34,050 nt of DNA from positions 1 through 34,050 of the forward strand of contig QMYR01000004.1 of the NCBI GenBank assembly GCA_003662765.1, read 5' to 3'. This document shows, piece by piece, positions 2,522-26,064 of the stretch. The notes under the pieces are model-generated. The model ran no database searches and was not told where the DNA came from. It saw only the letters and a list, made by a program, of their open reading frames with translations. Position 1 is the first letter of the stretch; each line of letters begins with the position of its first letter. A program made the position numbers and the translations under genes. Source of the stretch: Candidatus Thorarchaeota archaeon (GTDB taxonomy: Archaea; Asgardarchaeota; Thorarchaeia; Thorarchaeales; Thorarchaeaceae).

Positions 2522-3736
2522 TTGGGAAAGTACGATGTCGTCGTAGTAGGTGCGGGCCCGGCCGGTTCCTGTGCTGCATACGAACTTGCACAGGCTGGTC
2601 TTGACACAGTCCTGCTAGAGAAGGCGCAGCTTCCTCGGGACAAACCATGCGGCGGTGCGGTCATGTACCGTGGTCTGAGGTTGCTGGGGCGTCTGCCACG
2701 ACGGCTCGCCGAACGGGAGATCTATGGCCTGCGCTTCATTCTGCCTGACGGTCTCGATGTGCAGTTCAAGTCCAAGCGTCTGCTCGGAGTCACCACCAAC
2801 CGGTCGCTCTTCGATGAGTTTCTCGCCCGGCGTGCTGAGAGTGCGGGTGTTGAACTATTTGAGCTTGCAAGAGTGGCTCGAGTAGAGGTCGGTCGTGACG
2901 GGGTGACCACAGCTCTTAGTGACGGTCGTGAGTTCAGATCCCATTTTGTTGTTGGGGCTGACGGGGTCAACACCGTTGTGGGTCGATTTCTCGGGTTACG
3001 ACCGCCTAGGAAGGACCTGCACCGTGTGGGTCTGGGGATGGAGTCCGACTTTCGAGTGGGTGCTAGACGGGTCGTAGAGGCCTGTGATGGCGATCCCACC
3101 GTCCTTCAGATACTCCCTGTGGAGGGGCGTGTGAGCTATGGTTGGGTCTTCCCAAAGCGTGAGCATCTTGCTATCGGAATCGCAGGGGCCGGTGTCCACA
3201 TGCATCCACTTCGCCCCATCTTTGACGGCTTTGTTCGCCAGTTAGAGAAACGGTTTGGATTCGAGCTTGTGCCTGAGAAGCGCCGGGTATCGTTTCTTGG
3301 TGCAGATGGGGTCAATAATGTGAACGTGACCGACCGCGTGGTTCTAGTGGGTGATGCTGCAGGATACGTGGACCCAATGATGGGTGAGGGGATTGCATAT
3401 GCCATGTGGTCTGGGGTCTATGCAGCTTTTGTCATTGCGGAGGCCATGAATCGGGGGCGTTATGATGCTGCCTTCCTTGCCAAGTACGAAGACATGTGTC
3501 GTAAGGCGTTCGGTGCCAATTTTGCCATGGCCGAGTGGGCAGGCACACGGGGTACCTCTTTCGCCCACGCCGTCCTCTCGAGAGCATCTCATCTGAACCT
3601 ATCTGGAGAGATACTGTGCATGCTGGCCCGCGGGGAGATTGGGTACTCTCATATCCCGTCAGTGGTTCTTCGCAAACTGCCCTTTGAGATTCCCCACATT
3701 CTTCGTGACATGATTCAATCACGTTTTGCTGCGTGA
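2522..3736 (+). CDS. Geranylgeranyl reductase family FAD-dependent oxidoreductase (TTG start)
   Basis: N-terminal VVVGAGPAGSCAAYELAQAG, LPRDKPCGGAV, LVGDAAGYVDPMMGEGI. Confidence 0.9.
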   Translation: MGKYDVVVVGAGPAGSCAAYELAQAGLDTVLLEKAQLPRDKPCGGAVMYRGLRLLGRLPRRLAEREIYGLRFILPDGLDVQFKSKRLLGVTTNRSLFDEFLARRAESAGVELFELARVARVEVGRDGVTTALSDGREFRSHFVVGADGVNTVVGRFLGLRPPRKDLHRVGLGMESDFRVGARRVVEACDGDPTVLQILPVEGRVSYGWVFPKREHLAIGIAGAGVHMHPLRPIFDGFVRQLEKRFGFELVPEKRRVSFLGADGVNNVNVTDRVVLVGDAAGYVDPMMGEGIAYAMWSGVYAAFVIAEAMNRGRYDAAFLAKYEDMCRKAFGANFAMAEWAGTRGTSFAHAVLSRASHLNLSGEILCMLARGEIGYSHIPSVVLRKLPFEIPHILRDMIQSRFAA

Positions 3737-4796
3737 CAAGAGATATAGGCTCTCAAGTCTTGGGACTGATGCCGTGACCAGCTTGCGCTTGACCACTCTC
3801 GTGATTGTCGTTCTCATTATGTTACCCAGCATTCCGTTGTTCGTCCCCCCCGTGCGTTCCTCCTCGCTACTGTTTGATGGCGACTCCGCCTTTGAGTACC
3901 TCGACAAGCAGTGTGCCTTTGGTCCTCGTCCCCCGGGCTCCACAAACCTCTCTGAGTGCAGGTCATTCATTGTCAGTACGCTGCGAGAGTCTGGCTGGTC
4001 AGTTCACCTTCAGAACTTCACATATCGCGGCACCAACTGTGCGAACATCATCGCCACGTACGGGAGTGAGAATGCAACCACGATTCTTGGTGCGCACTAT
4101 GATACACGTCCGGTTGCAGACCGGGATTCTGACCCCGCGAATCGCACCCGGCCGATTCTTGGGGCAAACGATGGTGCCAGTGGTTCCGCAGTTCTGCTTG
4201 AGCTGGCCCGCGTGCTTCCCGCCGAGACCCGCACGGATATCGAACTCGTCTTTTTTGATGCCGAGGATAGCGGTGGAGTCGATGGATGGGACTGGATTGT
4301 TGGGTCTGACTACTATGTCACCACGCTTGATAATCAACGCCGCCAGTCCGTGCGTGCGATGATACTACTAGACATGGTCGGTGACGCATCACTGATTCTC
4401 CGACGTGAGCAGCGATCAACGGTTGCACTTCAGAACATGGTGTGGTCCATTGCATCCGACTTGGGCTACGGCCATATATTCGTAAATGAAACCGGGGCTG
4501 CTATCATCGATGACCACAACCCGTTCATCGACGCAGGTGTTCCGGCCCTAGACATAATACACCACGCACCATTCCCCTGGTACTGGCACACACTGGAGGA
4601 CACTCCGGACAAGTGTAGCGCTTCAAGCCTTGAGGTCGTGGGCCGGGTCTTGGAGGAATTCCTGTTACAGTTCTCTGGCTCGTCTATTACGTTCACACAG
4701 GGGTCGCCGACTCTGAGTTCACTAGTCGTGTTTCTCCTTCCCCCCATCCTGATTGTGGTCGTGGTGTCCATGTGGTGGCTACGCCGGGAACACTGA
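3726..4796 (+). CDS. Membrane-anchored M28-family peptidase / glutaminyl-peptide cyclotransferase-like protein
   Basis: LGAHYDTRPVADRD, GANDGASGSAVLLELAR, VFFDAEDSGG, IDDHNPFIDAGVPALDIIHHAPFPWYWHTLEDT; N-terminal signal/TM and C-terminal TM segments. Confidence 0.85.
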   Translation: MLRDKRYRLSSLGTDAVTSLRLTTLVIVVLIMLPSIPLFVPPVRSSSLLFDGDSAFEYLDKQCAFGPRPPGSTNLSECRSFIVSTLRESGWSVHLQNFTYRGTNCANIIATYGSENATTILGAHYDTRPVADRDSDPANRTRPILGANDGASGSAVLLELARVLPAETRTDIELVFFDAEDSGGVDGWDWIVGSDYYVTTLDNQRRQSVRAMILLDMVGDASLILRREQRSTVALQNMVWSIASDLGYGHIFVNETGAAIIDDHNPFIDAGVPALDIIHHAPFPWYWHTLEDTPDKCSASSLEVVGRVLEEFLLQFSGSSITFTQGSPTLSSLVVFLLPPILIVVVVSMWWLRREH

Positions 4797-4814: not shown

Positions 4815-5774
4815 GTGCACGCTGCATACTCTCACAGCCGGCTTGTCTTCCGGTTGGCGGTGACCGTATTGCACTCGACCCTCCTGTATCGTCCCACAGG
4901 TGCTAATCCTCCGCCACTCACTTGTGTGACCATTGATGCATCACGACGATCACTTGCTTGTGGCACTGCCGACTCGCGTGTCCTGCTTCTTGATGCAAAG
5001 ACCGGACGCCCTCGCAGGGCTCTCATTGGTCATGAGGACATGGTGGCCTCGGTGGCCTTCGGGGGGAAGAGTTCCATTGTCTTCTCTGCCAGCTGGGATG
5101 GCACTGTTCGACGATGGAGCACTGGACGAAGTACCCAAAACACGCATACATTGTCGCATACTTCAGGAGCAAAGTCGTTGGCTGTGGATGTGGAGGCCGG
5201 CAAGGGTGTGGCTGGTTTTCAGGATGGCATGGTGAAGGTCTTCACTACGAGTACTCTAAAGTGTCTTCGGAACATCCCTACACACAGCCGTGACGTTTCC
5301 TCGGTGGCTCTTCTGTCGGGTGGCGAAAATCTGCTCACGGCATCATGGGACGGGACATGCAGGCTCTGGGATCTGCGAAGGTACAAGCTGGTACGTACTG
5401 TTGCTGAGTTCAACCAGCGTATTCACAGCATGGCGGTGCTCGAGGACGGCTCGTCTGTCCTGCTCGGGCTCTACAATGGCGAGGTTATTGGTATTAGCAT
5501 CGACACGAACAGAGGGGCGGCCATCGAGGCGCACCAAGATGTCGTAGGGGCGCTCACATTCCTGCCTCATACCGAAGCGTTCGCGTCTGGCGGCTGGGAT
5601 TGTATGGTTCGTGTGTGGGGGCCATCACACGAACAGGTGGATTCGCATAGACTCCCCACAGGTGTGACGGGGATGTGCTTCTCTGAGCATGAGGGTCGTC
5701 TCTACGTGAGCAGCTTCTCAGGGGCTGTGACGGCTCTGGACCTTGATGAGGCTCTCTCATCTGCGGGTCATTGA
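4815..5774 (+). CDS. WD40-repeat beta-propeller protein
   Basis: Seven WD-like repeats readable (SWDGTVRRWS, SWDGTCRLWD, GWDCMVRVWG etc.). Confidence 0.88.
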   Translation: MHAAYSHSRLVFRLAVTVLHSTLLYRPTGANPPPLTCVTIDASRRSLACGTADSRVLLLDAKTGRPRRALIGHEDMVASVAFGGKSSIVFSASWDGTVRRWSTGRSTQNTHTLSHTSGAKSLAVDVEAGKGVAGFQDGMVKVFTTSTLKCLRNIPTHSRDVSSVALLSGGENLLTASWDGTCRLWDLRRYKLVRTVAEFNQRIHSMAVLEDGSSVLLGLYNGEVIGISIDTNRGAAIEAHQDVVGALTFLPHTEAFASGGWDCMVRVWGPSHEQVDSHRLPTGVTGMCFSEHEGRLYVSSFSGAVTALDLDEALSSAGH

Positions 5775-6325: not shown

Positions 6326-6399
6326 TCTGGAACTGGCCTGAATGGAACGGACCTAATCAATATGACTACTGTGACGCCAGTCTGGAGCCATTCCGCCGC

Positions 6400-7425
6400 C
6401 TATAGTCTCTGGGCAATGAATCGCGCCTCTCCAATGCTCCGCGTGATGCCTTTTATCTGAAAGTCGAAGGCACCGTACTCCTCGAAGATCTCGGCGTAGT
6501 AGTCCGACTCATTCTCTCGCAGGTCATCCACTAGATGTGCAAGATTGTGAGATATTATCCCATCCATGGCAAGAAGCGCTCTACCGAGGGTGTGTATAGC
6601 CCTCCGCATCTCAAGTACTGCCAGCTCGTAATCGCCCTCAATCGTGAGCTCGTTTACTGTGTGATAGCTGCGCTGAGCAGATGCGAGAAACTCAACAGCT
6701 GCGAGCGGCGCGTCCTCTCTCTCTGCCAGCCTCTCCTCAGCAATCTCCAGCCAATGTCTGAGGTCCTCCAGCACATCCATGATCTCTTCCTCTTCGAGTC
6801 CTCGCAGCTTGAACGTTCGGAGAAAGAGCTGATACGCTATCGGATCGAGTAGTCTGACCTCACTCAACACTTCAGCGGGCCTAATAATCTCAAACTGGTT
6901 GTTGCGCATCACAATGACTCTTCCCAGATCGAAGAGCGCATTGCGCACAAGCTCAACGGCACTGACAACATCCTCGTCATCGGCCGCCTCGGAGGCGTTA
7001 TCGAGCAGTTCAAGCGCTCGCTGCTTCATGCTCTCGATGACCTTCTCGGGCCATGTGAACTCGGCAGCTCTCTTGTGCCATTCCTCAAGATCGCCGTCCC
7101 TGTCGTAGACGATCTTGGCCTCCTTGAGCCTTCTGATGACCTCGGCGATCTTAAATGAGTCTTTGACCTCGCCATCGAGAACCTCTTCGATGTCACTTGG
7201 AGTGAGAAACGACATATCGACCCGGATATTCTGATGTTCTGCCATTAGTTGAACCGGTGCCTCTTGTTCGTCCCATATCACACACAAATCGAGCACGGAG
7301 TTTGCCGTGATGGTCCCGCGGGCGAAGGCACCATATACGTAGACTCCCTTGACGGTGTCTTTCTCTTTCCAGTCGTTGACTATCTCGTCGAGGACCTCGC
7401 GGAATCTCTTGTGGATGTTCATCAT
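6400..7425 (-). CDS. MNT-like nucleotidyltransferase fused to HEPN-like helical domain(s)
   Basis: VYVYGAFARGTITANSVLDLCVIW (degenerate GSxxRG..SDID), NIRVDMSFL; helical C-terminal part with EGDYELAVLEMRRAIHTLGRALLAMDGIISHNLAHLVDDL resembling HEPN. Confidence 0.65.
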   Translation of the reverse strand: MMNIHKRFREVLDEIVNDWKEKDTVKGVYVYGAFARGTITANSVLDLCVIWDEQEAPVQLMAEHQNIRVDMSFLTPSDIEEVLDGEVKDSFKIAEVIRRLKEAKIVYDRDGDLEEWHKRAAEFTWPEKVIESMKQRALELLDNASEAADDEDVVSAVELVRNALFDLGRVIVMRNNQFEIIRPAEVLSEVRLLDPIAYQLFLRTFKLRGLEEEEIMDVLEDLRHWLEIAEERLAEREDAPLAAVEFLASAQRSYHTVNELTIEGDYELAVLEMRRAIHTLGRALLAMDGIISHNLAHLVDDLRENESDYYAEIFEEYGAFDFQIKGITRSIGEARFIAQRL

Positions 7426-7524: not shown

Positions 7525-8301
7525 TTGGATTGTTCCGGAATGAGTCCATCTTACGGAGATGTCCTCAACGTGACGCGTGAAGATGGCCGGTCCAATGATG
7601 AGCTCAGACCTGTCGAGATAATTCGTGGGTTTCTAAAGCACCCTGCCGGTTCAGTCCTGATCAAGACTGGTGACACGCAGGTGATCTGTACTGCCACGGT
7701 CGAGGAGGGCGTTCCGGGGTGGCTGAATGGTGAGGGCCAAGGATGGATCACCGCTGAGTACGGGATGCTTCCTGCAGCCACGTCGGAGAGGAATAGCCGC
7801 TACCGTGTCAGCGGGCGCACCTACGAGATTCAACGACTGATTGGGCGTTCTCTACGGGCTGCTGTTGACCTTAGTATGATGGACGGCTACACAATCAGGA
7901 TAGACTGCGATGTGATCCAGGCTGATGGGGGCACGCGGACGGCATCCATCACAGGGGGCTATGTGGCACTGTATGATGCCCTCAGTCATCTTGTTCAGGA
8001 TGAGAAGCTCTACAAGATGCCAGTGAAGGGAATAGTCGCCGCTGTGAGCGTGGGAATCGTGGAGGGGTCGGTGCTCCTCGACCTCTGCTATGAGGAGGAC
8101 TCGGTCGCTGATGTCGACATGAACATAGTGATGCTGGATGGCTCCTTTGTTGAGGTTCAGGGGACTGGTGAGGGCGGCATTTTCACCAGAGAACAGCTGA
8201 GCGAGATGCTGTCGTTGGCCGAAAGAGGAATCCGCGAACTCATGATGATTCAACGGGATGTCCTTGGACTGGAGAATGATCACGTCGACACCGGCGAGTG
8301 A
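7525..8301 (+). CDS. rph: RNase PH, bacterial type
   Basis: [61 protein letters not shown]...[21 protein letters not shown]...[24 protein letters not shown]. Confidence 0.92.
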
Positions 8302-8868: not shown

Positions 8869-8884
8869 GAGTAGATCTGCGATT

Positions 8885-11800
8885 CGCTGTACGGCTGCTG
8901 GTGGATGACTTGGTTGGCTAGCCGATGAAGGGCGTGACGAGCAGCGATATGCCACGGGTAGACGCATGAAGTCGTTGATCCGTGGATTCCCGAATGGGAC
9001 TTCCTCATGAGGGCTAATACCCCTCATGGATCCGGGGTCGCTCCCGGATTGGGAACGGGCCGAACTGAAGCATCTTAGTAGGCCCAGGAAAAGAAAACAA
9101 CAGTGATTCCCTGAGTAACAGCGAGCGAAAAGGGAACAGGCCAAACCGAATCCCTGCGCGAAGAGTGCAGGGAGATGTGGTGTTTAGGGCCCGGACAATT
9201 GCCGACGTGCCTAAGCCGAAGTCGTCTGGAACGACGTGGCATAGAGGGTGACACCCCCGTAGGCGTAAAGCACGGGCATGTCTGGAGTCCCAGAGTAGCG
9301 CGGGTTGGTCTTCTCGCGTGAAGATCGCAGGCGCAACCTGCGAAGCCTAAATACTCAGCCAAACCGATAGCGTACTACGTAGCGCGAGCGAAAGTTGAAA
9401 AGCGCCGCGGGAGCGGGGTGAAAAGCACCTGAAACCAGCAGTCTACTCAAAGGATGCCGACTACAAGAGGAGATACTCGGGGAACGAACGGGAAGCGATT
9501 CCCTAGTAGGACCTGAGTGGATCGAGCCGGCATCATCCGTCTTGAAACACGGGCCAGGGAGTTCATGGGCGTGGCGAGGATAAGGCGTCGAGCCGCAAAC
9601 GTAGGGAAACCAACAAGCCCGCAGCCGGTTCGTCCGGTGAGGGGCGGCGTGTGAATAGCGCGCGAAGTCACTCCCATGACACGAGAAACCAGTCGATCTA
9701 GGCCTGGCCAGGGTGAAGCCGGGCGAAAGCTCGGTGGAGGCCCGAAAGGGTTCTGACGTGCAACTCGTTCCGTTGAGCTGGGCCTAGGGGTAAAAGGCTT
9801 ATCTAGACTGGTGATTGCTCGTTCTCCGCGAAGTTGGTCGCAGCCAAGCCCTGCCTGAGGTATCACGTGGTGTAGAGCACTTTCGGATCGGACCGGGGGG
9901 CGTAAAGCCCTTCACCATCCTGAAAACTCCGAAGCTGCGTGAACCGTAGACGGCAGGAGACGGGTGCCCGGGGTAAGCCCGGCAGGCCGAGATGGGGAGA
10001 ACCGAGAGTACGGTTAAGGTCCCTAAGTGCCAGATAAGTGCGGTGAAGAAGGGCGTCGAGAGCCCAAGACAGTCTGGGGGTGAGCTTAGAGGCAGCTATC
10101 CCCGAACGAAAGCGTAACAGCTCACAGACCGAGGCTCTCGGCCTTGAAAATGGACGGGGCTAAATCTGGCCACCGAGACCGTACGGCACGCGAGTAACAT
10201 CGCGTGATCCGGTAGCGGAGCGACCCGGTTGGGTAGAAGCAGGGGCGTGAGCTCCTGTGGACCGTCCGGGTTTGATGATCCTGGCAGTAGTAACAGCGAA
10301 GCATGGTGAGAATCCATGTCGCCGGAAGGGAAAGGGTTCTTCGGCGATGCGTCATCAGCCGAAGCTTAGTCGGTCCTAAGGGGCACCGCAACTCGAGTGT
10401 CCCGAAAGGGAATCAGGTTAATATTCCTGAACCTCGGAAGTACGTTTCGCGGCGACGCAAAGCCGGACTTGTGACTCATCTGGATAGGCCAGGCACCGTC
10501 CTCGCGGTGTTTAACACTATAAGCCTGCTGAGAACCGTAACGGTGAGAGGCAGGTGAAAGGTGGAATAGCGGGTGGTCGGACACCCGTCTGGCTGATTCC
10601 TGGTGACCTTGAAAAGCGAGTCCGGAAGGATCTTCCGAGTCCGTACCCAGAACTGACACAGGTTCCCTGGCTGAGAAGGCCAAGGCGTATCCGGGTCAAT
10701 CCTGCCTGAGGGAAATCGGCCAATTAGCGGCGTAACTTCGGGATATGCCGTGCCTGGGTTGGTGCAAGCCTTCCCAGGTCTTAGTGACTAGGGGGTCCCA
10801 ACTGTTTAATACAAACATAGCTGACTGCGAGCGCGAAAGCGTTAGTACAGTCAGTGAATCCTGGTCTGTGCCTGTCTGTTAAACCTCAGAAATGGGGCGA
10901 AGCACAGGTTAACGCCGGGACTAACTATGAGTCTCTTAAGGTAGCCAAATGCCTTGTCGGTTAAATGCCGACGTGCATGAAGGGAGCAATGAGGTCCCCA
11001 CTGTCCCCAGGAGGAACCGGGTGAACCTACACCATACCGAACAGTGTATGTAGCGCCAATGGGAAGAGAAGTCCCTGCGGAGGTTTACTACGCAGTCTGT
11101 CGTTGCCATCTCTGTTGTCATACAGAGCGTAGTCAGGAGCGTTGAAGCAGGCTCTCCGGGGCCTGTGGATGCGACCATGGAACACTGACTATGGCAATGG
11201 GGGTGGCTAACCTAGGCCAAGCGAGTCTAGGGACACCGGCAGATAGGCAGTTGGGCTGGGGCGGCACACGGCTGACAAGAGATCAGCCGTGACCAATGCT
11301 GAGCTCAGAGGCGACGGAAACGTCTCGTTGAGATCAAGGGCATAAGCTCGGCTGACGGGATCCCGCAAAGCAACGGATCCCGGGCGGAAACGCTGGCCTA
11401 GCGAACCTTCACCGGCCAGTTGCGAGCGGTGGAGATGACAGAAAACTTACCCCAGGGGTAACAGAGTTGTCGCGGGCAAGAGTCCATATCGACCCCGCGG
11501 CTTGCTTCCTCGATGTCGGCTCTTGGTATCCTCGGGTTGCATAAGGCCCGAAGGGTGCGGGTGCTCACCGATTAAAACCGAACGTGAGCTGGGTTTAGAC
11601 CGTTGCGAGACAGGTTGGTTTCTATCTATTGGCGCTGTTGGGTGTCTGAGGGCAAGATGATGCCGGTACGAGAGGAACGCATCGTCGCGGCCTATGGTGT
11701 ACCGATTGTCCGAGAGGGCACTGTCGGGTAGCTAAGCCGTAACGGATAAGCGCTGAATGCATCTAAGCGCGAAGCCGGACCCGAAAATAGACACCCACTT

Positions 11801-11965
11801 TGCGGACGCCGGTGAGAACCGCTGCGGGGCTGGCGACAGCAACGTAGAGTCCGTGAACGAGGGATCTGGTAGAAGACCAGGTAAATAGGGCGGGGGTGTA
11901 AGCACCAAGCCTTCGGGCGAGGTGTTCAGCCTACCGCTACTAATTCCCGAGGCGTGCGGATCAAA
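8885..11965 (+). rRNA. rrl: 23S ribosomal RNA (ends approximate)
   Basis: Archaeal 23S landmarks: GGTGGATG...CCGATGAAGGGCGTG near 5' end, GTAACTATGA-like CTAACTATGAGTCTCTTAAGGTAGCCAAATGCCTTGTCGG, CAGGGGTAACAGAGTTGTCGCGGGC, sarcin-ricin TACGAGAGGAAC. Confidence 0.97.
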
Positions 11966-11995: not shown

Positions 11996-12599
11996 CAAGG
12001 ACGTTTGTGTGAACGACCAATCTTCATCCTCTGCAGGCTATGTTCTGTTGTTTCGTCTGAAACCGTTGCTGCATCTGTGTCTGTTCTTCGTCCTTTGTAG
12101 TAGTAGACAGTTGTATGACTTTGCTTACAACCTACCTGACTTGCCGAGCAGGGGCCATTCGCTGGGAGTCGTACAAGTTGGCGTCGTGCACAGAGTAAAA
12201 AGTATGCAATCCGTGCCCAACATTGCCAACGATATTAGTTGTAGCGCGTAATCTGGGCTTATGATGGGCGTTTCATGACATCTTATGCATTTCCGTTTCG
12301 GGGGGTGATCATGTGGGCCCATAGACTGTGATCAAAGACGGGCGTGAGACTTGCTGATGTTCGCTGGGAATAGATACCTGCAGTGTCAGTCGAGTCAGAG
12401 GGGAACTGGACGGAATGGCACGTGGCCCACTGAAGACCCATTCATCATCGAGTTTCCTTCTGTGGGGCCTTGTCATGTCAGGTCGGCCTCTGCCAAGATG
12501 ACGCTGAGAGGGGATGATCCGTTGTTGATACGAAACAATGTTGTGTTGCTGAAGAGGTGTAGGCGGTCACCAGTCTGTCTGTCGGTAGGTCGTGGCAGG

Positions 12600-13583
12600 A
12601 TGGGGCTTAAGACCTGCTCCTTGCTGCTTGTGGTGGTCGTGCTGTCACCACTGTGGATGATGCCACTGTCGGTACCTGCTTTCTCGGATGTGGTCGTGGT
12701 CATGCACCACGATAGTGCCGTGAACACTGCTGTTCGCACCATCACGGAGAACGTGCCGGACATAAGGGTGGTGGAGTATGGATCGTTGGAGTATGCCATG
12801 ATCATTCATCGGACTGCGGGACGAGTTGTGTGGGTGTCGCATGGCTCAGAGGACGGAATTCTTGCAGGTTCGCGGGTGCTCAGTTGGCGAGCATTCAGCA
12901 GTCGAACCCAGATGACTCCCGGCAAAGATCTCGTGTTGGCCTGTGATTCAAGTGAGGTTAACAAGTATGTCCCCCAAAATTCAGTTGTGGGCCTTACGGG
13001 GCCGGTAGATGCCACGTTGGGTGGATTGGTGGTCGCCTACTTGCTTGCTCCTCGAAGCATAGTCCTGGAGATGGCACACGAACATGTGGTTGAGATTGCA
13101 GAGGGGGCGGTCACCCTCGAATTCCTTGATCTCTCTCTTGCGGAGATTACCTACTGGACGGCCATGTTCCTTCTTTCGATTCTTGCATACTACTCGAGCA
13201 ATCCTCTTGCAGTTTCCAATCCAACATGGACACAGCTTGTAGTGCACTTCCTGTCGGAGAATCTGATTACCAACTCGCCCTCTATCGTTCTGACATTGGT
13301 CTATCTTTTGCTGGGGCAGATAGATGTGTGGGTTGCAGTGTGGCAGATCATAGCTTTTGTTGTATGTGATGCGCCCGCTGCATTTGCTCAGATGATTCTT
13401 GATCCACAAATCAGAAACGATTGTCTTTTTGTCACTGTGACATTGCTATCCTTGGGATTAATCCTCTTACACCATGTTTGGGGCACGCTAACTCTGGATC
13501 TTGTATTTCTGTTGGGCGGAATGATTTTCATAGCAGCTGGGCTCTTGACGGACTATTATGATGATACTGATTGGGTCGGGTGA
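12600..13583 (+). CDS. Membrane-anchored caspase-like (clan CD) putative peptidase domain protein
   Basis: Signal peptide from internal ATG (MGLKTCSLLLVVVVLSPLW); VVWVSHGSEDGI ... KDLVLACDSSEV His-Gly/Cys pair spaced as in clan CD; multi-TM C-terminal half. Confidence 0.5.
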   Translation: MGLKTCSLLLVVVVLSPLWMMPLSVPAFSDVVVVMHHDSAVNTAVRTITENVPDIRVVEYGSLEYAMIIHRTAGRVVWVSHGSEDGILAGSRVLSWRAFSSRTQMTPGKDLVLACDSSEVNKYVPQNSVVGLTGPVDATLGGLVVAYLLAPRSIVLEMAHEHVVEIAEGAVTLEFLDLSLAEITYWTAMFLLSILAYYSSNPLAVSNPTWTQLVVHFLSENLITNSPSIVLTLVYLLLGQIDVWVAVWQIIAFVVCDAPAAFAQMILDPQIRNDCLFVTVTLLSLGLILLHHVWGTLTLDLVFLLGGMIFIAAGLLTDYYDDTDWVG

Positions 13584-13666
13584 AATGACCATGTTACGAA
13601 AACAAGTTCTTGCCAATTGGCTCCTCCCCGCATTGAACAACGACACGGACACTACAAAAAGCAGGG

Positions 13667-14428
13667 GTGCAGACATTGGGCATCAGACGCTTCCTTGAGC
13701 CCGCGATCAGCAGATTTCAGGCAGATGAGAGAGAGAACAAGTTCAACTCTATCTCACTCGTCATTGTCATATCGTTTGTCCTCGTGGTCGCAGAGAGCTC
13801 TCTTGCTCTTGGGCTGGGCCAGTGGAATCCCTTTCATGTGGTCTATCTATTGCTCGGTCTGTCATTCTTGCCTGTTGTGATCTCCTGCAGCAGCGTAATG
13901 CAAACTTCGAAGAATGATCTACTGACACGCGAGCAGCACCAGGCATTGAGGAACTCCTCAATTCGACTCGGCTTCCTCTGGAATGTGCTCCTGTATCTTG
14001 GCGTGATCGCCATTGGATTGAACGACCTCCGGCAGATTCAACAGGGAGTTGAAGTACCAGTCAGTCACTATCAACCTGACTTGCTCATGGGCTTGCTTAT
14101 TGGAGCGCTGTGTATCTCACTCATTTTCCTGACCATCGCCGCCAGTTTCTGGCAATGGGACTGCTTCAAGATCGTAGAGGGCACGCAAGAACTCACACTG
14201 GATGAGGACACATATCGGAAACGGACCAGTGTTGTCCTCCTTGTGTTGTCGCTCGTATTTGTTCTTCTTCTTGTCTTCAAGAGCGTGCTCGAACAGGAGT
14301 TCGCCATCTTGCGCTGGATGTCTTCTCTTCCATTTGGCATCACTCTTCTTCTAACGGTAATTCTGCTCGGTGTTCTCTTCCACAAGAACCGTGGAACATT
14401 GCGTCCACTGCGACAGATACAGTTGTGA
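13667..14428 (+). CDS. Multi-pass membrane protein, unknown function (GTG start)
   Basis: Several hydrophobic segments (LVIVISFVLVVAESSLAL, VVYLLLGLSFLPVVI, LLVLSLVFVLLLVF). Confidence 0.7.
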   Translation: MQTLGIRRFLEPAISRFQADERENKFNSISLVIVISFVLVVAESSLALGLGQWNPFHVVYLLLGLSFLPVVISCSSVMQTSKNDLLTREQHQALRNSSIRLGFLWNVLLYLGVIAIGLNDLRQIQQGVEVPVSHYQPDLLMGLLIGALCISLIFLTIAASFWQWDCFKIVEGTQELTLDEDTYRKRTSVVLLVLSLVFVLLLVFKSVLEQEFAILRWMSSLPFGITLLLTVILLGVLFHKNRGTLRPLRQIQL

Positions 14429-14453
14429 GGCGTAACAGATGGAATGAGGTGCA

Positions 14454-15473
14454 ATGTCAGTATCCGAGAAACTCAAGGAGAAGATACACAAGAAGATCGA
14501 AACTTGGAAAGCCAAGATGTTGAATGGGTACTCTTTAAGGGGACATAGTGATACGCACGTTGCATTGGGGCGATTGCAGTCGACAATCGATTCAATTGCG
14601 CGTCCTGATGCCACCTTCAAGATTCGAGAGAAGATGCAGGGGGCCGCATATCTTGTGATTATGGCCGAGCTTCTCTTCATCTTGGCACTGAAGCTAGCAG
14701 CCAATGGAATAGGGGTGCCTGAATCTTCCCAAGGCTACATCCTGACAATTGGTGCAGGTGTGACTGCAATACTGGTCGGTGGTGTCCTCGTGTCGCTGAG
14801 CGTATTGAAGTGTGCCGAGGCCTTGTTATCTGCTATGTCAGCCAACGCCGACAGGCTGGATGCAGATTTTCTCTTTGCAAACTCGCTGATCCTCTCGCCC
14901 TCGAGAGAAACGGAGGCCCGATATCGCGACTACAATGTCAGAGTGTTTCGCGCCATGAGTCCTGGTTCAATGCTCGTTTATGCATCGGCTCTCGGATTGG
15001 CGGCCCTCGTACTATTGATTGAATCATCAGTTCGCGTGGATACGTCCACCAACCAGTTCTTGGCCGACGGCCTGCTCATGCCAAGAATAGGAGGTTTCGA
15101 TCTCGTGGTGCTGCTGTGTATTCTGCCGTCTGTCTATGTCAGCATCTCTGGAATCTTCTTGTACATTGTTTCAGATTATGGTGCCAGAAAATGGAGTCGT
15201 CTGTCATCTGACGACCTTCGTAGGATAGCAGAACGCATGAGAGCAGAGAAGATAGCCTCTCTGAGAGGCGATCTCCGTTATCCTGACCTGACCTACGAAG
15301 ACGCACTTGAGTTGTTGGGAGCACCTCAAGGGGACAGACTCAGAACAGATGCGATATTGGAGGCCTCCCGAGGGATTGATGCTGAGATTACCAGGTTCAA
15401 CAGAGTTCGTAGATACTATCTTCTTGCCATAGTGGTCATTGTGGTCATCGATGCTATCATTCAGCTCTTGTGA
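14454..15473 (+). CDS. Multi-pass membrane protein with cytoplasmic helical tails, unknown function
   Basis: Charged N-terminus, TM segments (YLVIMAELLFILALKLA, ILTIGAGVTAILVGGVLVSL), C-terminal TM YYLLAIVVIVVIDAIIQLL. Confidence 0.7.
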   Translation: MSVSEKLKEKIHKKIETWKAKMLNGYSLRGHSDTHVALGRLQSTIDSIARPDATFKIREKMQGAAYLVIMAELLFILALKLAANGIGVPESSQGYILTIGAGVTAILVGGVLVSLSVLKCAEALLSAMSANADRLDADFLFANSLILSPSRETEARYRDYNVRVFRAMSPGSMLVYASALGLAALVLLIESSVRVDTSTNQFLADGLLMPRIGGFDLVVLLCILPSVYVSISGIFLYIVSDYGARKWSRLSSDDLRRIAERMRAEKIASLRGDLRYPDLTYEDALELLGAPQGDRLRTDAILEASRGIDAEITRFNRVRRYYLLAIVVIVVIDAIIQLL

Positions 15474-15692: not shown

Positions 15693-16436
15693 TCATTCGA
15701 ATGCTCTGTCCTCGACATGGTCCCGCAGCCTCTCGACAACATCTTTGTCAGCAATGAGTCTTGCAGCGCGGAAGTATGTTCCAATCGTCCGAAGTTCTGT
15801 CCCGAACCGGCTCCAGCGGATGGGTCGGCCTCGAGAGTCCCTCAGCCGACACTTCTCTATTAGTTTCCTATTGAACGGGACCGCTATCTCGTATCTTGTT
15901 GATTTCTGTGATCCTTTGACGACCCAAAAACCATCATACTGTGATCTGTCGCACTCTCCCCGGATAATATGCATGTTTCTTCTTATCCTTCGAAGAACTG
16001 AGGCTGGGGGACGCTCCTTGATTGGGCCGTATATCCGGTCCACCATGAAGCGACCAACAAAATAGAAACCCGCTCTTCTCGTGAAGCCATTCTTCCACTC
16101 CACAAGTCTTGCGTAGAACAGTAGCATGTCCCCTCTGGTCAAGCGAGCTATGTTTGCAGCGCGCGGCCTCCTTAGGTAGTCTCCGTATGTAAATGTGCTG
16201 AACTCTGGATCATTGTGCATGAGTTGTGAGAGGCGAGTCCTAGGAATGAATGCCTCAACAGGTAGGTCTGTCACTGGATGTAGATCCCTGTATCTCGGGG
16301 CCCTTGGGCACTCCACTCTGTTGAGGACCTCTTCGGGGATAGGTACAAACTCAAATCGACCATCGGGTAACCGTGGGCTTCTTAGCGGCTCATGCTTTGT
16401 ATTCACGCCTACATTCACAATACATATTCTTGTCAT
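15693..16436 (-). CDS. Nmad3-like (nucleotide modification-associated domain) protein
   Basis: MTRICIVNVGVNTKHEPLRSPRLPDGRFEFVPIPE, HNDPEFSTFTYGDYLRRPRAANIARLTRGDMLLFYARL, FYFVGRF. Confidence 0.55.
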   Translation of the reverse strand: MTRICIVNVGVNTKHEPLRSPRLPDGRFEFVPIPEEVLNRVECPRAPRYRDLHPVTDLPVEAFIPRTRLSQLMHNDPEFSTFTYGDYLRRPRAANIARLTRGDMLLFYARLVEWKNGFTRRAGFYFVGRFMVDRIYGPIKERPPASVLRRIRRNMHIIRGECDRSQYDGFWVVKGSQKSTRYEIAVPFNRKLIEKCRLRDSRGRPIRWSRFGTELRTIGTYFRAARLIADKDVVERLRDHVEDRAFE

Positions 16437-18747: not shown

Positions 18748-19572
18748 TCAGTAAGAATTGGCGCGCTCAATTTGTGAGAGAAATGTCCGGACTCTCTCCG
18801 AGGCATCAACGGAAACATCCTCTTCTATGAAGTGCGAAACGGCAAGCGGACCATAGCTGTTGGGCGATTCGAATGCATCACTGATTTTCTGGAGAGCTTG
18901 TTGTGTATAGTCAGGCATAATTCCATCATTGACCGTGTCAACTCGCTGGTTGAATCGTGCTGCAGCTCTGTCAGGACTGCCCATATGGAAACCAGCCAGC
19001 AGATAGATATCATAGGCGTCTTTCTCAATCTTGGTGGCTCTGCCCAATGCAAGACCTTTCATCGTCAAGGCTCCCACAATGTCCGCCATCCGCATCTTGG
19101 CCGTTCCCTCCCCTCCTGCTGGCATCACACCTCTTACAGATCTTTCTTGGTTGAACCTGAACACGATGTTGCACCCGGGAATGAAGACCGCTTCAAGGCT
19201 CTCCTGTACTTTGAGAAGAGAAGTCACATGTTTCTCGCCTTCTGGCTCGGTGAGGAAGTCCAAGTGGATTGCGAACGGTGTTCCATCAAGCGCCCTGATT
19301 ATACGTTCGAAACGGAATGCGTTTGTCGTTGAGTGATATCCAAGACTATGAATCAGCCTGCGGATGGACTCGTAACGTGTCATCACATTTGTGCGAAGTA
19401 CTAGATCTATGTCAATTGAGCCACAGTGGCTTGCAAAGCCTTGCGTCAAGAAGTAAGGCACCCAACCCCCAACTAGAACGTAATCATCACTGTACGACTC
19501 CATCGCAAGCGCAAGTTCAACAATAGCGCCCTTTGACGCCTCAGTCTGATTCCTGTCATACATATCCATCAT
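18748..19572 (-). CDS. AbiEii-like nucleotidyltransferase (type IV TA toxin family)
   Basis: YVLVGGWVPYFL...CGSIDIDLVL, KIEKDAYDIYLLAGF. Confidence 0.65.
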   Translation of the reverse strand: MMDMYDRNQTEASKGAIVELALAMESYSDDYVLVGGWVPYFLTQGFASHCGSIDIDLVLRTNVMTRYESIRRLIHSLGYHSTTNAFRFERIIRALDGTPFAIHLDFLTEPEGEKHVTSLLKVQESLEAVFIPGCNIVFRFNQERSVRGVMPAGGEGTAKMRMADIVGALTMKGLALGRATKIEKDAYDIYLLAGFHMGSPDRAAARFNQRVDTVNDGIMPDYTQQALQKISDAFESPNSYGPLAVSHFIEEDVSVDASERVRTFLSQIERANSY

Positions 19573-19785
19573 TTATCCTGCCGTTATAGGCGGCATGCCA
19601 TGTTGAGTGTGAAGCCCTCTGACCGTTCCGACACTCTTGAGGGCATATCGCTCTTACTATCTTATAGTCCCTCACATGCTCTGCCTCTTGAGGTCCTACT
19701 GAACATTCCTTTGGTTCTATGTGCTTTTCTTCGGTAATTCCGCTGCCGTGCTGACACATCGTCGCCGAGCGAGGCCCTCGCGCCG

Positions 19786-19828
19786 GTGTTTCGCTAATTG
19801 CGAAACTATATAAACATGGGCGAAACAC
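19786..19828 (+). promoter_or_regulatory. Operator-like triple half-site array overlapping a TATA box
   Basis: GTGTTTCGC (19786-19794), GCGAAAC (19800-19806), tatataaa TATA (19807-19814), GCGAAACAC (19820-19828). Confidence 0.65.
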
Positions 19829-19836
19829 TCTGGTAC

Positions 19837-20502
19837 ATGAGACAGGTCCGAAACCTCTTCTCGCGGACGGCATCTCGCGTTCTGAGAGTCTTGTTGGCAC
19901 ATCCCATGCGAGAATGGACCATCAAGGGACTGTCTCAGGAGGCCAATGTGTCACTTGGCTACACACATGCAGTGATTACGTCTTTGATTAGTGCTGGCTA
20001 CGCAACGAGAGGCAGTTCCTACAGGATTCGCGTGGTGGATCCCATACGACTCATTCGGAGATGGGCCGCATACCACGATTACGCTGCGATCAACACGTTT
20101 CTCAGGTACCACACATTCGAGAGAGATGTCGACACATTCCTCTCAAGGTTGTCCAGACTTGACGAGGCCGAGTACGCGCTCACTGTTCTGTCGGGGGCCC
20201 ACCTGATTGCTCCATACGTTCGACCTACGACGATTCACTTCTACATCTCAGACCAGACCGACCCCAAGACTGTGGCTGAATTACTTGACCTGCGTCCAGT
20301 TGAGTCCGGCGGAAACGTGTCGGTTGTGCGACCGTATGATGCAGGAGTGTTCTACGCGAGGCAGACAGTCGATGGTCTGAGTGTGGTCAACTCCGTTCAG
20401 CTCTATGTCGATCTCTTCAATTATCCTGCACGTGGTAGTGAGGCTGCTGAGAAGATCCTAGAGACCCTGGCAAATCAGTGGTACAGTGCTACTAGAGTCT
20501 GA
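19837..20502 (+). CDS. AbiEi/COG4861-like winged-helix regulator (putative type IV antitoxin)
   Basis: wHTH RVLRVLLAHPMREWTIKGLSQEANVSLGYTHAVITSLISAGYATR; TVLSGAHLIAPYVRPTTIHFYI; VQLYVDLFNYPARGSEAAEKILETL. Start 19837 chosen from TATA spacing. Confidence 0.65.
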   Translation: MRQVRNLFSRTASRVLRVLLAHPMREWTIKGLSQEANVSLGYTHAVITSLISAGYATRGSSYRIRVVDPIRLIRRWAAYHDYAAINTFLRYHTFERDVDTFLSRLSRLDEAEYALTVLSGAHLIAPYVRPTTIHFYISDQTDPKTVAELLDLRPVESGGNVSVVRPYDAGVFYARQTVDGLSVVNSVQLYVDLFNYPARGSEAAEKILETLANQWYSATRV

Positions 20503-24479: not shown

Positions 24480-24535
24480 TATTTCTTTTTTTCAATTATT
24501 AAATCATTAATTTGGGAATCCTTATATATTCTTGC
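24480..24535 (+). promoter_or_regulatory. Strongly AT-rich promoter with TATA element (ccttatatattc) for radical SAM gene
   Basis: tttctttttttcaattattaaatcattaatttgggaatccttatatattcttgc. Confidence 0.6.
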
Positions 24536-24591
24536 TGACCCACTCCTTAATTAAAGAGCAATGTCAACCGGAGAGAACCAGGGCGATTTGC

Positions 24592-26064
24592 ATGGATGAC
24601 AAGAATGGAAGTAGTGCTACTGTATCTGAGGACGATACCAATATCGAAGTCACGAGCTTGATGGCATCCCTTCAGAAGATTTTCAATAGTAGGTTGTTTA
24701 GATTCGCTATGAAACGTGTTGAAACCCCAAGAAAACTTGAGCACATAGTTGGGGTGTACGCAGGCATTCTTGAAGCAAGAGGAATACGAGAGAAAACGAT
24801 ATCCTATCTCTTGCAAAAAGCTATGTCTAAATCTGCGTCTAGATTCGGGTTTGCTGAGGAAAGCTTGAAAGAGGCACTAAAGGATCCGTATACGAGAAAA
24901 GCCATTGCCAATATTCTAATGGGAATTGCGAAATTCGGCATTACACGGCCACAGAAACTATGTGCCCCATTCATGATTGTATGGAATTTCACAAAACAGT
25001 GCAACCTTAGATGTAGGCATTGTTACGCAAATGCGGGTCCTCATCCAGCACCTGACGAGCTGACATTGAGCGAAAAACTTGAAGTGTTAAGGCAACTCGA
25101 TGAGGCAGGAGTTGCCGCCATATCTTTCTCTGGAGGGGAACCATTAGTAAACAAGGATTTTTGGAATGTTGCTAAGAGGGCAGCAGAAATGGGGTTCTAT
25201 ATCAGTGTTGCTACGAATGGTACTTTGATAACAAGAGATGTAGCAAAGCGGTTGAAAGAAACAGGCGTTCGGTATGTTGAGGTAAGCATTGACTCACCCA
25301 ATCCAGAAGAGCATGATGAATTCAGAGGAATTCCTAGAGCTTGGAAAAGATCAATAGAAGGCATTCGGAATGCAAAGAAAGAAGGATTGAGCGTAGGCAT
25401 TGCAATGACAGTGACCAGAGCGAATCATAGACAACTTCCAGAAATGATGGAACTTGCTAGAAACCTTAATGCTGACCGACTTATTGCATTCAACTTTGTA
25501 CCGACTGGACGTGGGAAAGAAATCATAGAAATGGATCTTTCACCTGATGAACGAGAGGCCGTCCTCAGTTATCTGTATGAAGAATTGACTGCGGGCAAGA
25601 TGCAAGTGTTTTCGACTGCACCCATGTATGCCATTGTTTCTTTGAAGAATATTGACAAAGGAGGTAAGTTGACTCCGACCCACTTTGCCGAACTTTCAGT
25701 TCCTGATGAGTATCTTTCTGCAGGATTTGCGTTGGGTGAGTTTTTGGGTGGTTGCGGTGCTGGGAGAATCTACTGTTCAATTGAACATAATGGCGACATT
25801 CAACCATGTGTATTTCTCCCAATAAAGGTGGGGAACGTTCTGAGAGATGGTTTTCTGAACGTGTGGTACAATAATGAAATTCTGCATGAGTTAAGAGACC
25901 GAGATCACTATGCATGCAGTCACTGTGAATACAGATACATATGTGGCGGTTGCAGAGCAAGAGCGTATGCGTACTACGGGAATGTATCCGCACCTGACCC
26001 AAGTTGCGTATTCAATAGAGATCTGTGGAATGAACTTACCGAGGAAGTCGAAGCCAGTGAATAG
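24592..26064 (+). CDS. Radical SAM / SPASM domain protein
   Basis: CNLRCRHCYAN (CX3CX2C), SFSGGEPL, SPASM cysteines CGAGRIYCSIEHNGDIQPCVFLP...CSHCEYRYICGGCRARA. Confidence 0.93.
   Translation: MDDKNGSSATVSEDDTNIEVTSLMASLQKIFNSRLFRFAMKRVETPRKLEHIVGVYAGILEARGIREKTISYLLQKAMSKSASRFGFAEESLKEALKDPYTRKAIANILMGIAKFGITRPQKLCAPFMIVWNFTKQCNLRCRHCYANAGPHPAPDELTLSEKLEVLRQLDEAGVAAISFSGGEPLVNKDFWNVAKRAAEMGFYISVATNGTLITRDVAKRLKETGVRYVEVSIDSPNPEEHDEFRGIPRAWKRSIEGIRNAKKEGLSVGIAMTVTRANHRQLPEMMELARNLNADRLIAFNFVPTGRGKEIIEMDLSPDEREAVLSYLYEELTAGKMQVFSTAPMYAIVSLKNIDKGGKLTPTHFAELSVPDEYLSAGFALGEFLGGCGAGRIYCSIEHNGDIQPCVFLPIKVGNVLRDGFLNVWYNNEILHELRDRDHYACSHCEYRYICGGCRARAYAYYGNVSAPDPSCVFNRDLWNELTEEVEASE

Follow-up and report, generated by a model that had tools for sequence, protein, structure and literature searches.

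Zhang et al. (2012, PMC3482391) describe caspase-like domains in bacterial polymorphic toxins, where they lie just before the variable part and act as processing peptidases, and report that classical systems of this kind are scarce among archaea. The locus considered here lies in a window of 34,050 nucleotides (positions 1 to 34,050, forward strand, of contig QMYR01000004.1, assembly GCA_003662765.1) from a Candidatus Thorarchaeota archaeon, where three genes in 12351-15473 encode a membrane-anchored protein with a caspase-like domain (gene A) and two further membrane proteins (genes B1 and B2). Asgard archaea are relatives of the ancestor of complex cells. Gene A belongs to a family in which a constant N-terminal part is joined to membrane modules of many unrelated types, and, in the sequences compared, the module type predicts the type of the partner gene B downstream. 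We read such A-B pairs as a polymorphic two-gene Asgard membrane cassette of conflict type with a protease-like domain, perhaps a toxin and its immunity protein, an interpretation whose chances we place slightly below even.

Gene A (12600-13583, + strand), delimited by its open reading frame (ORF), hydropathy and homologs, encodes 327 aa. Its start is likely the ATG at 12600 (MGLKTC...); TTG 12351 was rejected as a start, since the 83 extra residues have no match in homologs. The protein has an N-terminal hydrophobic, signal-like segment (residues 7-25), a constant caspase-like domain defined by alignments (residues 26-153; 12675-13058, + strand) and a variable C-terminal membrane module, called type I (13059-13580, + strand), with about four hydrophobic segments. 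Type I is common to G000:C134, G018 and G019 (G000 is the window's own genome, other G numbers are genomes of relatives, and L numbers are loci). Hydropathy, on which these segments rest, agrees with the first-pass annotation in placing a signal-like segment before the domain and a membrane module after it.

The domain carries the motifs VVWVSHG, with the putative catalytic His81 (codon 12840-12842, + strand), and LVLACDSS, with the putative catalytic Cys115 (codon 12942-12944, + strand). Among 87 aligned domain sequences, many of them about 20% identical to the window copy, only one lacks His81 and only one lacks Cys115 (86/87 for either residue), so that the His...Cys motif noticed in the first-pass annotation is real and not a chance resemblance, and the lack of conservation in homologs that it named as a refutation was not seen. 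Other kept residues are Ser117 (83/87), Trp96 (82/87) and Asp137 (79/87; codon 13008-13010, + strand), the third of these in a G-x-[VI]-D-A motif that follows the final strand. Tyr replaces the Cys in L033 and Arg replaces the His in L142; rare, apparently inactive copies therefore exist. The residue after the His is Gly in 73 sequences and Ser in 14. Many members of G128, G122 and G064 (L114-L131) have His-Ser instead of His-Gly, together with short downstream partners, and they form what looks like a distinct branch whose activity may differ.

The family is modular. Within Thorarchaeota, modules of the same type from different genomes share a mean identity of 52%, compared with 25% for modules of different types within one genome. 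In G002, copies whose C-termini are unrelated are 75 to 85% identical in a stretch that reaches from about 220 bp upstream to about 280 bp downstream of the domain start, beyond which the similarity ends. On the domain tree, which is poorly resolved apart from two pairs, module type changes 15 times and genome 9 times, and the two strongly supported pairs each unite different module types from one genome. The shared 5' part can even precede an unrelated gene: in L188 (6350-8278, G002:C1), the promoter, leader, GTCG tract and signal peptide (6350-6650) stand before a secreted-looking protein of about 568 aa without a caspase-like domain, followed by a 202-aa protein with two hydrophobic segments. 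A constant N-terminal part with an export signal and a variable C-terminal part, the layout by which polymorphic toxins are recognized, are both found in this family.

Partner genes follow gene A closely and match its module. Of the 66 A genes with downstream sequence, 56 are followed within 300 bp by a gene on their own strand. With ORFs around A genes called mechanically, the next gene has at least two hydrophobic segments for 47/66 A genes versus 45/502 background genes (Fisher p 8e-28), which bears out the proposal that the protein has membrane partners. Similar A modules are found in 46 of the 48 similar B pairs, leaving only two similar B pairs without them, and 10,000 label shuffles gave a maximum of 14; because the genomes are partly related and hence not independent, this test exaggerates the significance, and its result serves as a guide. 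Several genomes outside Thorarchaeota have short partners, and most of their module and partner types are singletons; a matching of the two there would be putative.

In the window, gene B1 (13667-14428, + strand) and gene B2 (14454-15473, + strand) are multi-transmembrane proteins by hydropathy, with six and five hydrophobic segments, respectively, and the same-strand arrangement of three ORFs described in the first-pass annotation is present. Its idea of a fixed three-gene system did not hold: the trio was not found elsewhere, the first two genes form a conserved pair, and the third is of the partner type of another family member. In G018 and G000:C134, a relative of B1 follows the type I A gene, and in G019 its relatives lie at contig edges, which identifies B1 as the cognate partner of the type I module. 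The relative of B2 in G001 follows a broken A gene (L028, 5132-5887), and B2 is best read as an orphan partner belonging to a different cassette type. The cluster would thus consist of one cassette plus an orphan.

Orphans are recurrent. Nine strong matches to the type II partner comprise four after an intact type II A gene, one after an orphan module and four orphans, and the G002 array L024 holds two intact A-B pairs together with two A modules that lack the constant domain (1935-2579 and 3414-3974). Broken A genes were seen in G000:C134 (an internal TGA), G000:C137, G001:C16 and G015. The same flanking genes hold different cassettes in G002, G001 and G013 (L027, L030, L195), and the window's own site, which adjoins the RNase PH gene (7525-8301, + strand) and a nucleotidyltransferase gene, bears type I in the window and a different A/B array, of types II and VI, at its counterpart in G002. 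In addition, the proportion of synonymous differences (pS) between G000 and G002 is 0.46-0.48 for the type II A and B genes, compared with 0.74-0.76 for three chromosomal genes of this genome pair; such low silent divergence is consistent with transfer of the type II cassette between species. That the type II contig G000:C176 is itself contamination from a G002-like organism is made less likely by a neighbor gene on it, which G002 lacks and which shares 78% identity with a gene of G001. Orphan modules and partners, broken copies, site polymorphism and low silent divergence together point to cassette exchange.

Many copies carry a short repeat tract at the 5' end. Relatives have perfect (GTCG)n tracts of 3 to 7 units, and the window has a degenerate counterpart, GTCT GTCT GTCG GTAG GTCG (12573-12592, + strand), just before the start codon. 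The 12-mer GTCGGTCGGTCG occurs at nine places in G002 (one of them the L188 unit), two in G001 and one in G012, all 12 at the 5' end of a unit of this kind, and a reversed control pattern occurs 0 to 2 times per genome. In G002, an upstream ATGGGG is in frame with the signal peptide when the tract has 4 or 7 units and out of frame when it has 3 or 6, and the tract is possibly a translational phase switch. Against a switch stands the TTG or GTG found downstream of the tract in most copies, which may be the true start instead. Between the upstream ATG and the tract, the G002 leaders of L004, L022, L023, L024, L027, L031, L032 and L034 also contain, by eye, an inverted repeat (CGTGYAC...GTGCACG), a candidate hairpin in which the bases of at least one pair vary among copies (C-G, T-A or T-G).

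The gene is present in 27 of the 99 related genomes searched, at times more than once (G002 has 14 matches, the window's own genome 6), and a profile search gave matches in 71 of 231 Asgard genomes, with a maximum of 15 per genome. The nearest named records come mostly from Candidatus Thorarchaeota genomes. No homolog was found among viral contigs, phages or plasmids, which gives no reason to regard it as a phage or plasmid gene. In the literature collection searched, the titles and abstracts of Thorarchaeota and Asgard papers on caspase-like, gingipain, toxin or defense themes yielded no description of the family. In distant members, the domain is near the N-terminus of proteins of about 500 to 1800 aa. 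A hydrophobic segment is present at the N-terminus of most of these proteins and at the C-terminus of several, and some have TSP3 repeats, a region of alpha/beta hydrolase type or a weak match to reprolysin. This secreted-looking architecture suggests that the domain is extracytoplasmic.

Is the domain a clan CD peptidase? The signals are consistent but weak. In a Pfam scan of 69 members, the most-matched families were Peptidase_C25 (3 members, best E value 0.0013) and Peptidase_C80 (2 members, best 0.085), both of clan CD, and the full-length member L140 matched C25 at an E value of 0.009. No member reached any Pfam cut-off: two members scored 14 to 16 bits against PF01364 (C25), whose cut-off is 23 bits, and the window protein had no match. 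Profile-profile comparison with C25 and C14 profiles built from Asgard genome proteins gave an E value of 8e-4 (probability 24%) for C25 and 0.02 for C14, against 0.12-0.28 for reversed controls, with the His-Gly and the Cys in register with both families. Two AlphaFold models, made from inputs of only 9 to 10 sequences, show a strand-helix order compatible with clan CD at predicted local distance difference test (pLDDT) scores of 45 and 49; with these scores and no fold match, the caspase-like fold remains inferred. Matches to MARTX/C80 at E values of about 1 were not relied on, and the unrelated Foldseek matches of the domain model (E values of at least 0.37) were used as evidence neither way. 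The clan CD assignment in the first-pass annotation is weakly supported: the His and Cys are in register, the scores are low, and neither AlphaFold nor Foldseek confirmed the fold. An alternative is some other alpha/beta enzyme with a conserved His and Cys, a view that gains from these weak scores and from the only match of the broad domain profile in the PDB, a putative thioesterase (E value, 0.07); we consider it improbable, as both weak models place the HG after one strand and the C after the next, and both residues align with C25 and C14. Ordinary C14 caspase-like and C25 gingipain-like genes are also found in Asgard genomes (L169-L187 and L149-L168); the window's own genome has a C14 gene at G000:C20, and some Asgard C25 proteins lie in frames of more than 2000 aa.

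The cassette reading starts from features visible in the genomes: conservation of the dyad, modularity, module-partner matching, orphans, broken copies, polymorphic sites and, for one cassette, signs of lateral movement. From these we infer a clan CD fold, peptidase activity, a location outside the cell, and effector and immunity roles. In the mechanism we propose, the gene A product would be exported through its signal-like segment, leaving the constant domain outside the cell, where its His-Cys dyad would probably serve thiol peptidase activity, with the protein's own C-terminal half or the partner being processed or activated by it. The C-terminal half would be the exchangeable membrane module, probably the effector. 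Gene B would encode the cognate membrane partner, which probably restrains or neutralizes the module like an immunity protein, or else forms a complex with it. Cassettes would be exchanged and lost, and the promoter, leader, signal and peptidase part would stay common within a genome.

Several results weigh against this interpretation, among them the non-independence of the genomes behind the matching test, the short and mostly singleton partners outside Thorarchaeota, and the low pLDDT scores and missing fold-search match of the domain. The modules scanned gave no convincing Pfam match and no recognized toxin domain, ten B proteins gave no Pfam match beyond chance level and no recognized immunity domain, and type VI partners have no hydrophobic segments. 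The ratio of nonsynonymous to synonymous divergence (dN/dS) in measurable pairs is 0.09-0.26, indicating purifying selection on both halves, and values this low offer no hint of an arms race fought through point changes.

This selection on both halves, the nearly always intact dyad, the signal segment, the likely outer location and the membrane anchoring would also suit an enzyme of surface maturation, in which the outer domain is a processing enzyme or transpeptidase comparable to GPI transamidase or clostripain, the module is its platform, gene B supplies a subunit or substrate, and variation reflects different substrates. It would be unusual for a maturation enzyme to occur in up to 15 matches per genome and with unrelated modules, and to show orphan partners and broken copies as well as lateral movement and polymorphic sites; we regard this explanation as unlikely. 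Less likely again is an antiviral or stress-sensing effector, whose domain would sense infection or be activated by it and whose membrane module would depolarize the cell under the regulation of gene B. Clan CD domains and membrane effectors are frequent in abortive-infection systems, and toxin-antitoxin-like and nucleotide-modification genes lie nearby. No PADLOC model matched the three genes, however, and the defense or stress role suggested by the first-pass annotation is putative at most; the domain apparently lies outside the cell, where viral replication would go unsensed, and a self/non-self conflict would account at least equally well for the way in which module and partner diversify in step. 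The least probable is surface recognition or adhesion, with a structural or peptide-binding domain and variable parts that mark kin or strain identity, for although diversification, candidate repeat-mediated switching and the fusion of the domain to long, TSP3-containing surface proteins speak for it, the near-invariant His and Cys argue for catalysis and the variable part lies mostly within the membrane instead of being exposed.

The three genes had no above-cut-off match in Pfam, NCBIfam or PHROGs and no useful match among PDB sequences or PADLOC models; an IncE match of B2 (E value, 0.0015, below cut-off) and a weak CcmD match of B1 were taken as membrane-composition matches. Upstream, a complete archaeal 23S rRNA gene (8877-11962, + strand) lies between RNase PH and gene A and has no counterpart there in G002; it is solitary, the window containing neither a 16S rRNA gene nor a tRNA gene. 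Further upstream, a WD40-repeat beta-propeller protein (4815-5774) is strongly similar to eukaryotic WD40 families. Downstream of the locus, G+C drops from 0.55-0.59 to mostly 0.45-0.53. An Nmad3 (nucleotide-modification-associated domain) gene (15693-16436; E value, 3.9e-20) adjoins B2 and is followed by a weakly matched AbiEii-like nucleotidyltransferase (18748-19572, - strand; E value, 0.007) and an AbiEi-like antitoxin regulator (19798-20502, + strand; E value, 8.6e-13). The latter two form a divergent pair (18748-20502), an unusual layout for a type IV toxin-antitoxin pair. These genes and the fall in G+C make the edge of an island rich in toxin-antitoxin genes, as had been suggested, plausible. 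The lowest G+C of the window (0.44-0.45) coincides with a Radical SAM/SPASM protein (24532-26064).

If the cassette reading is right, the Asgard archaea, the lineage closest to eukaryotes, would possess a native archaeal polymorphic weapon or recognition system built on a caspase-like domain. Both a pre-eukaryotic use of caspase-type proteases and the competition with, or recognition of, neighbors by Asgard cells would become testable.

Compared with known systems, the domain shares with clan CD peptidases, C25 gingipain and the C80 autoprocessing domain foremost, a His-Gly after one strand and a Cys after the next (the strands being taken from the weak models). It differs in being a putative peptidase of only about 130 aa set inside a signal-domain-membrane-module protein. 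GPI transamidase (C13) and clostripain (C11) likewise have an outer or luminal clan CD domain and are membrane-anchored, or secreted with a role in surface-protein processing, but they are single conserved enzymes and not diversified cassettes, a distinction from the Asgard family drawn by description only. The GTCG tracts, with 3 to 7 short units at the 5' end of genes whose products are of surface type and a unit number that sets the reading frame from the upstream ATG, resemble the phase-variable contingency loci with tetranucleotide repeats of pathogenic bacteria. Unlike at those loci, many tracts are found only in the relative G002, the window tract is degenerate, the start is putative and a change of unit number within a population would be a prediction. 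The cassettes are organized most like polymorphic toxin-immunity systems, with a constant N-terminal and an exchangeable C-terminal part, a caspase-like domain just before the variable part, a matching gene directly downstream, and orphan modules and partners. They differ in being archaeal, in having membrane modules without known toxin domains as their variable parts and in showing no known secretion apparatus. As recognized toxin domains are absent, we do not class the family as a member of these systems. With rather less confidence than in the cassette itself, it might instead constitute an Asgard conflict or recognition class of its own, in which a caspase-like outer peptidase domain and exchangeable membrane modules with dedicated partners share a common promoter-leader-signal unit, travel as cassettes and are switched by tetranucleotide repeats.
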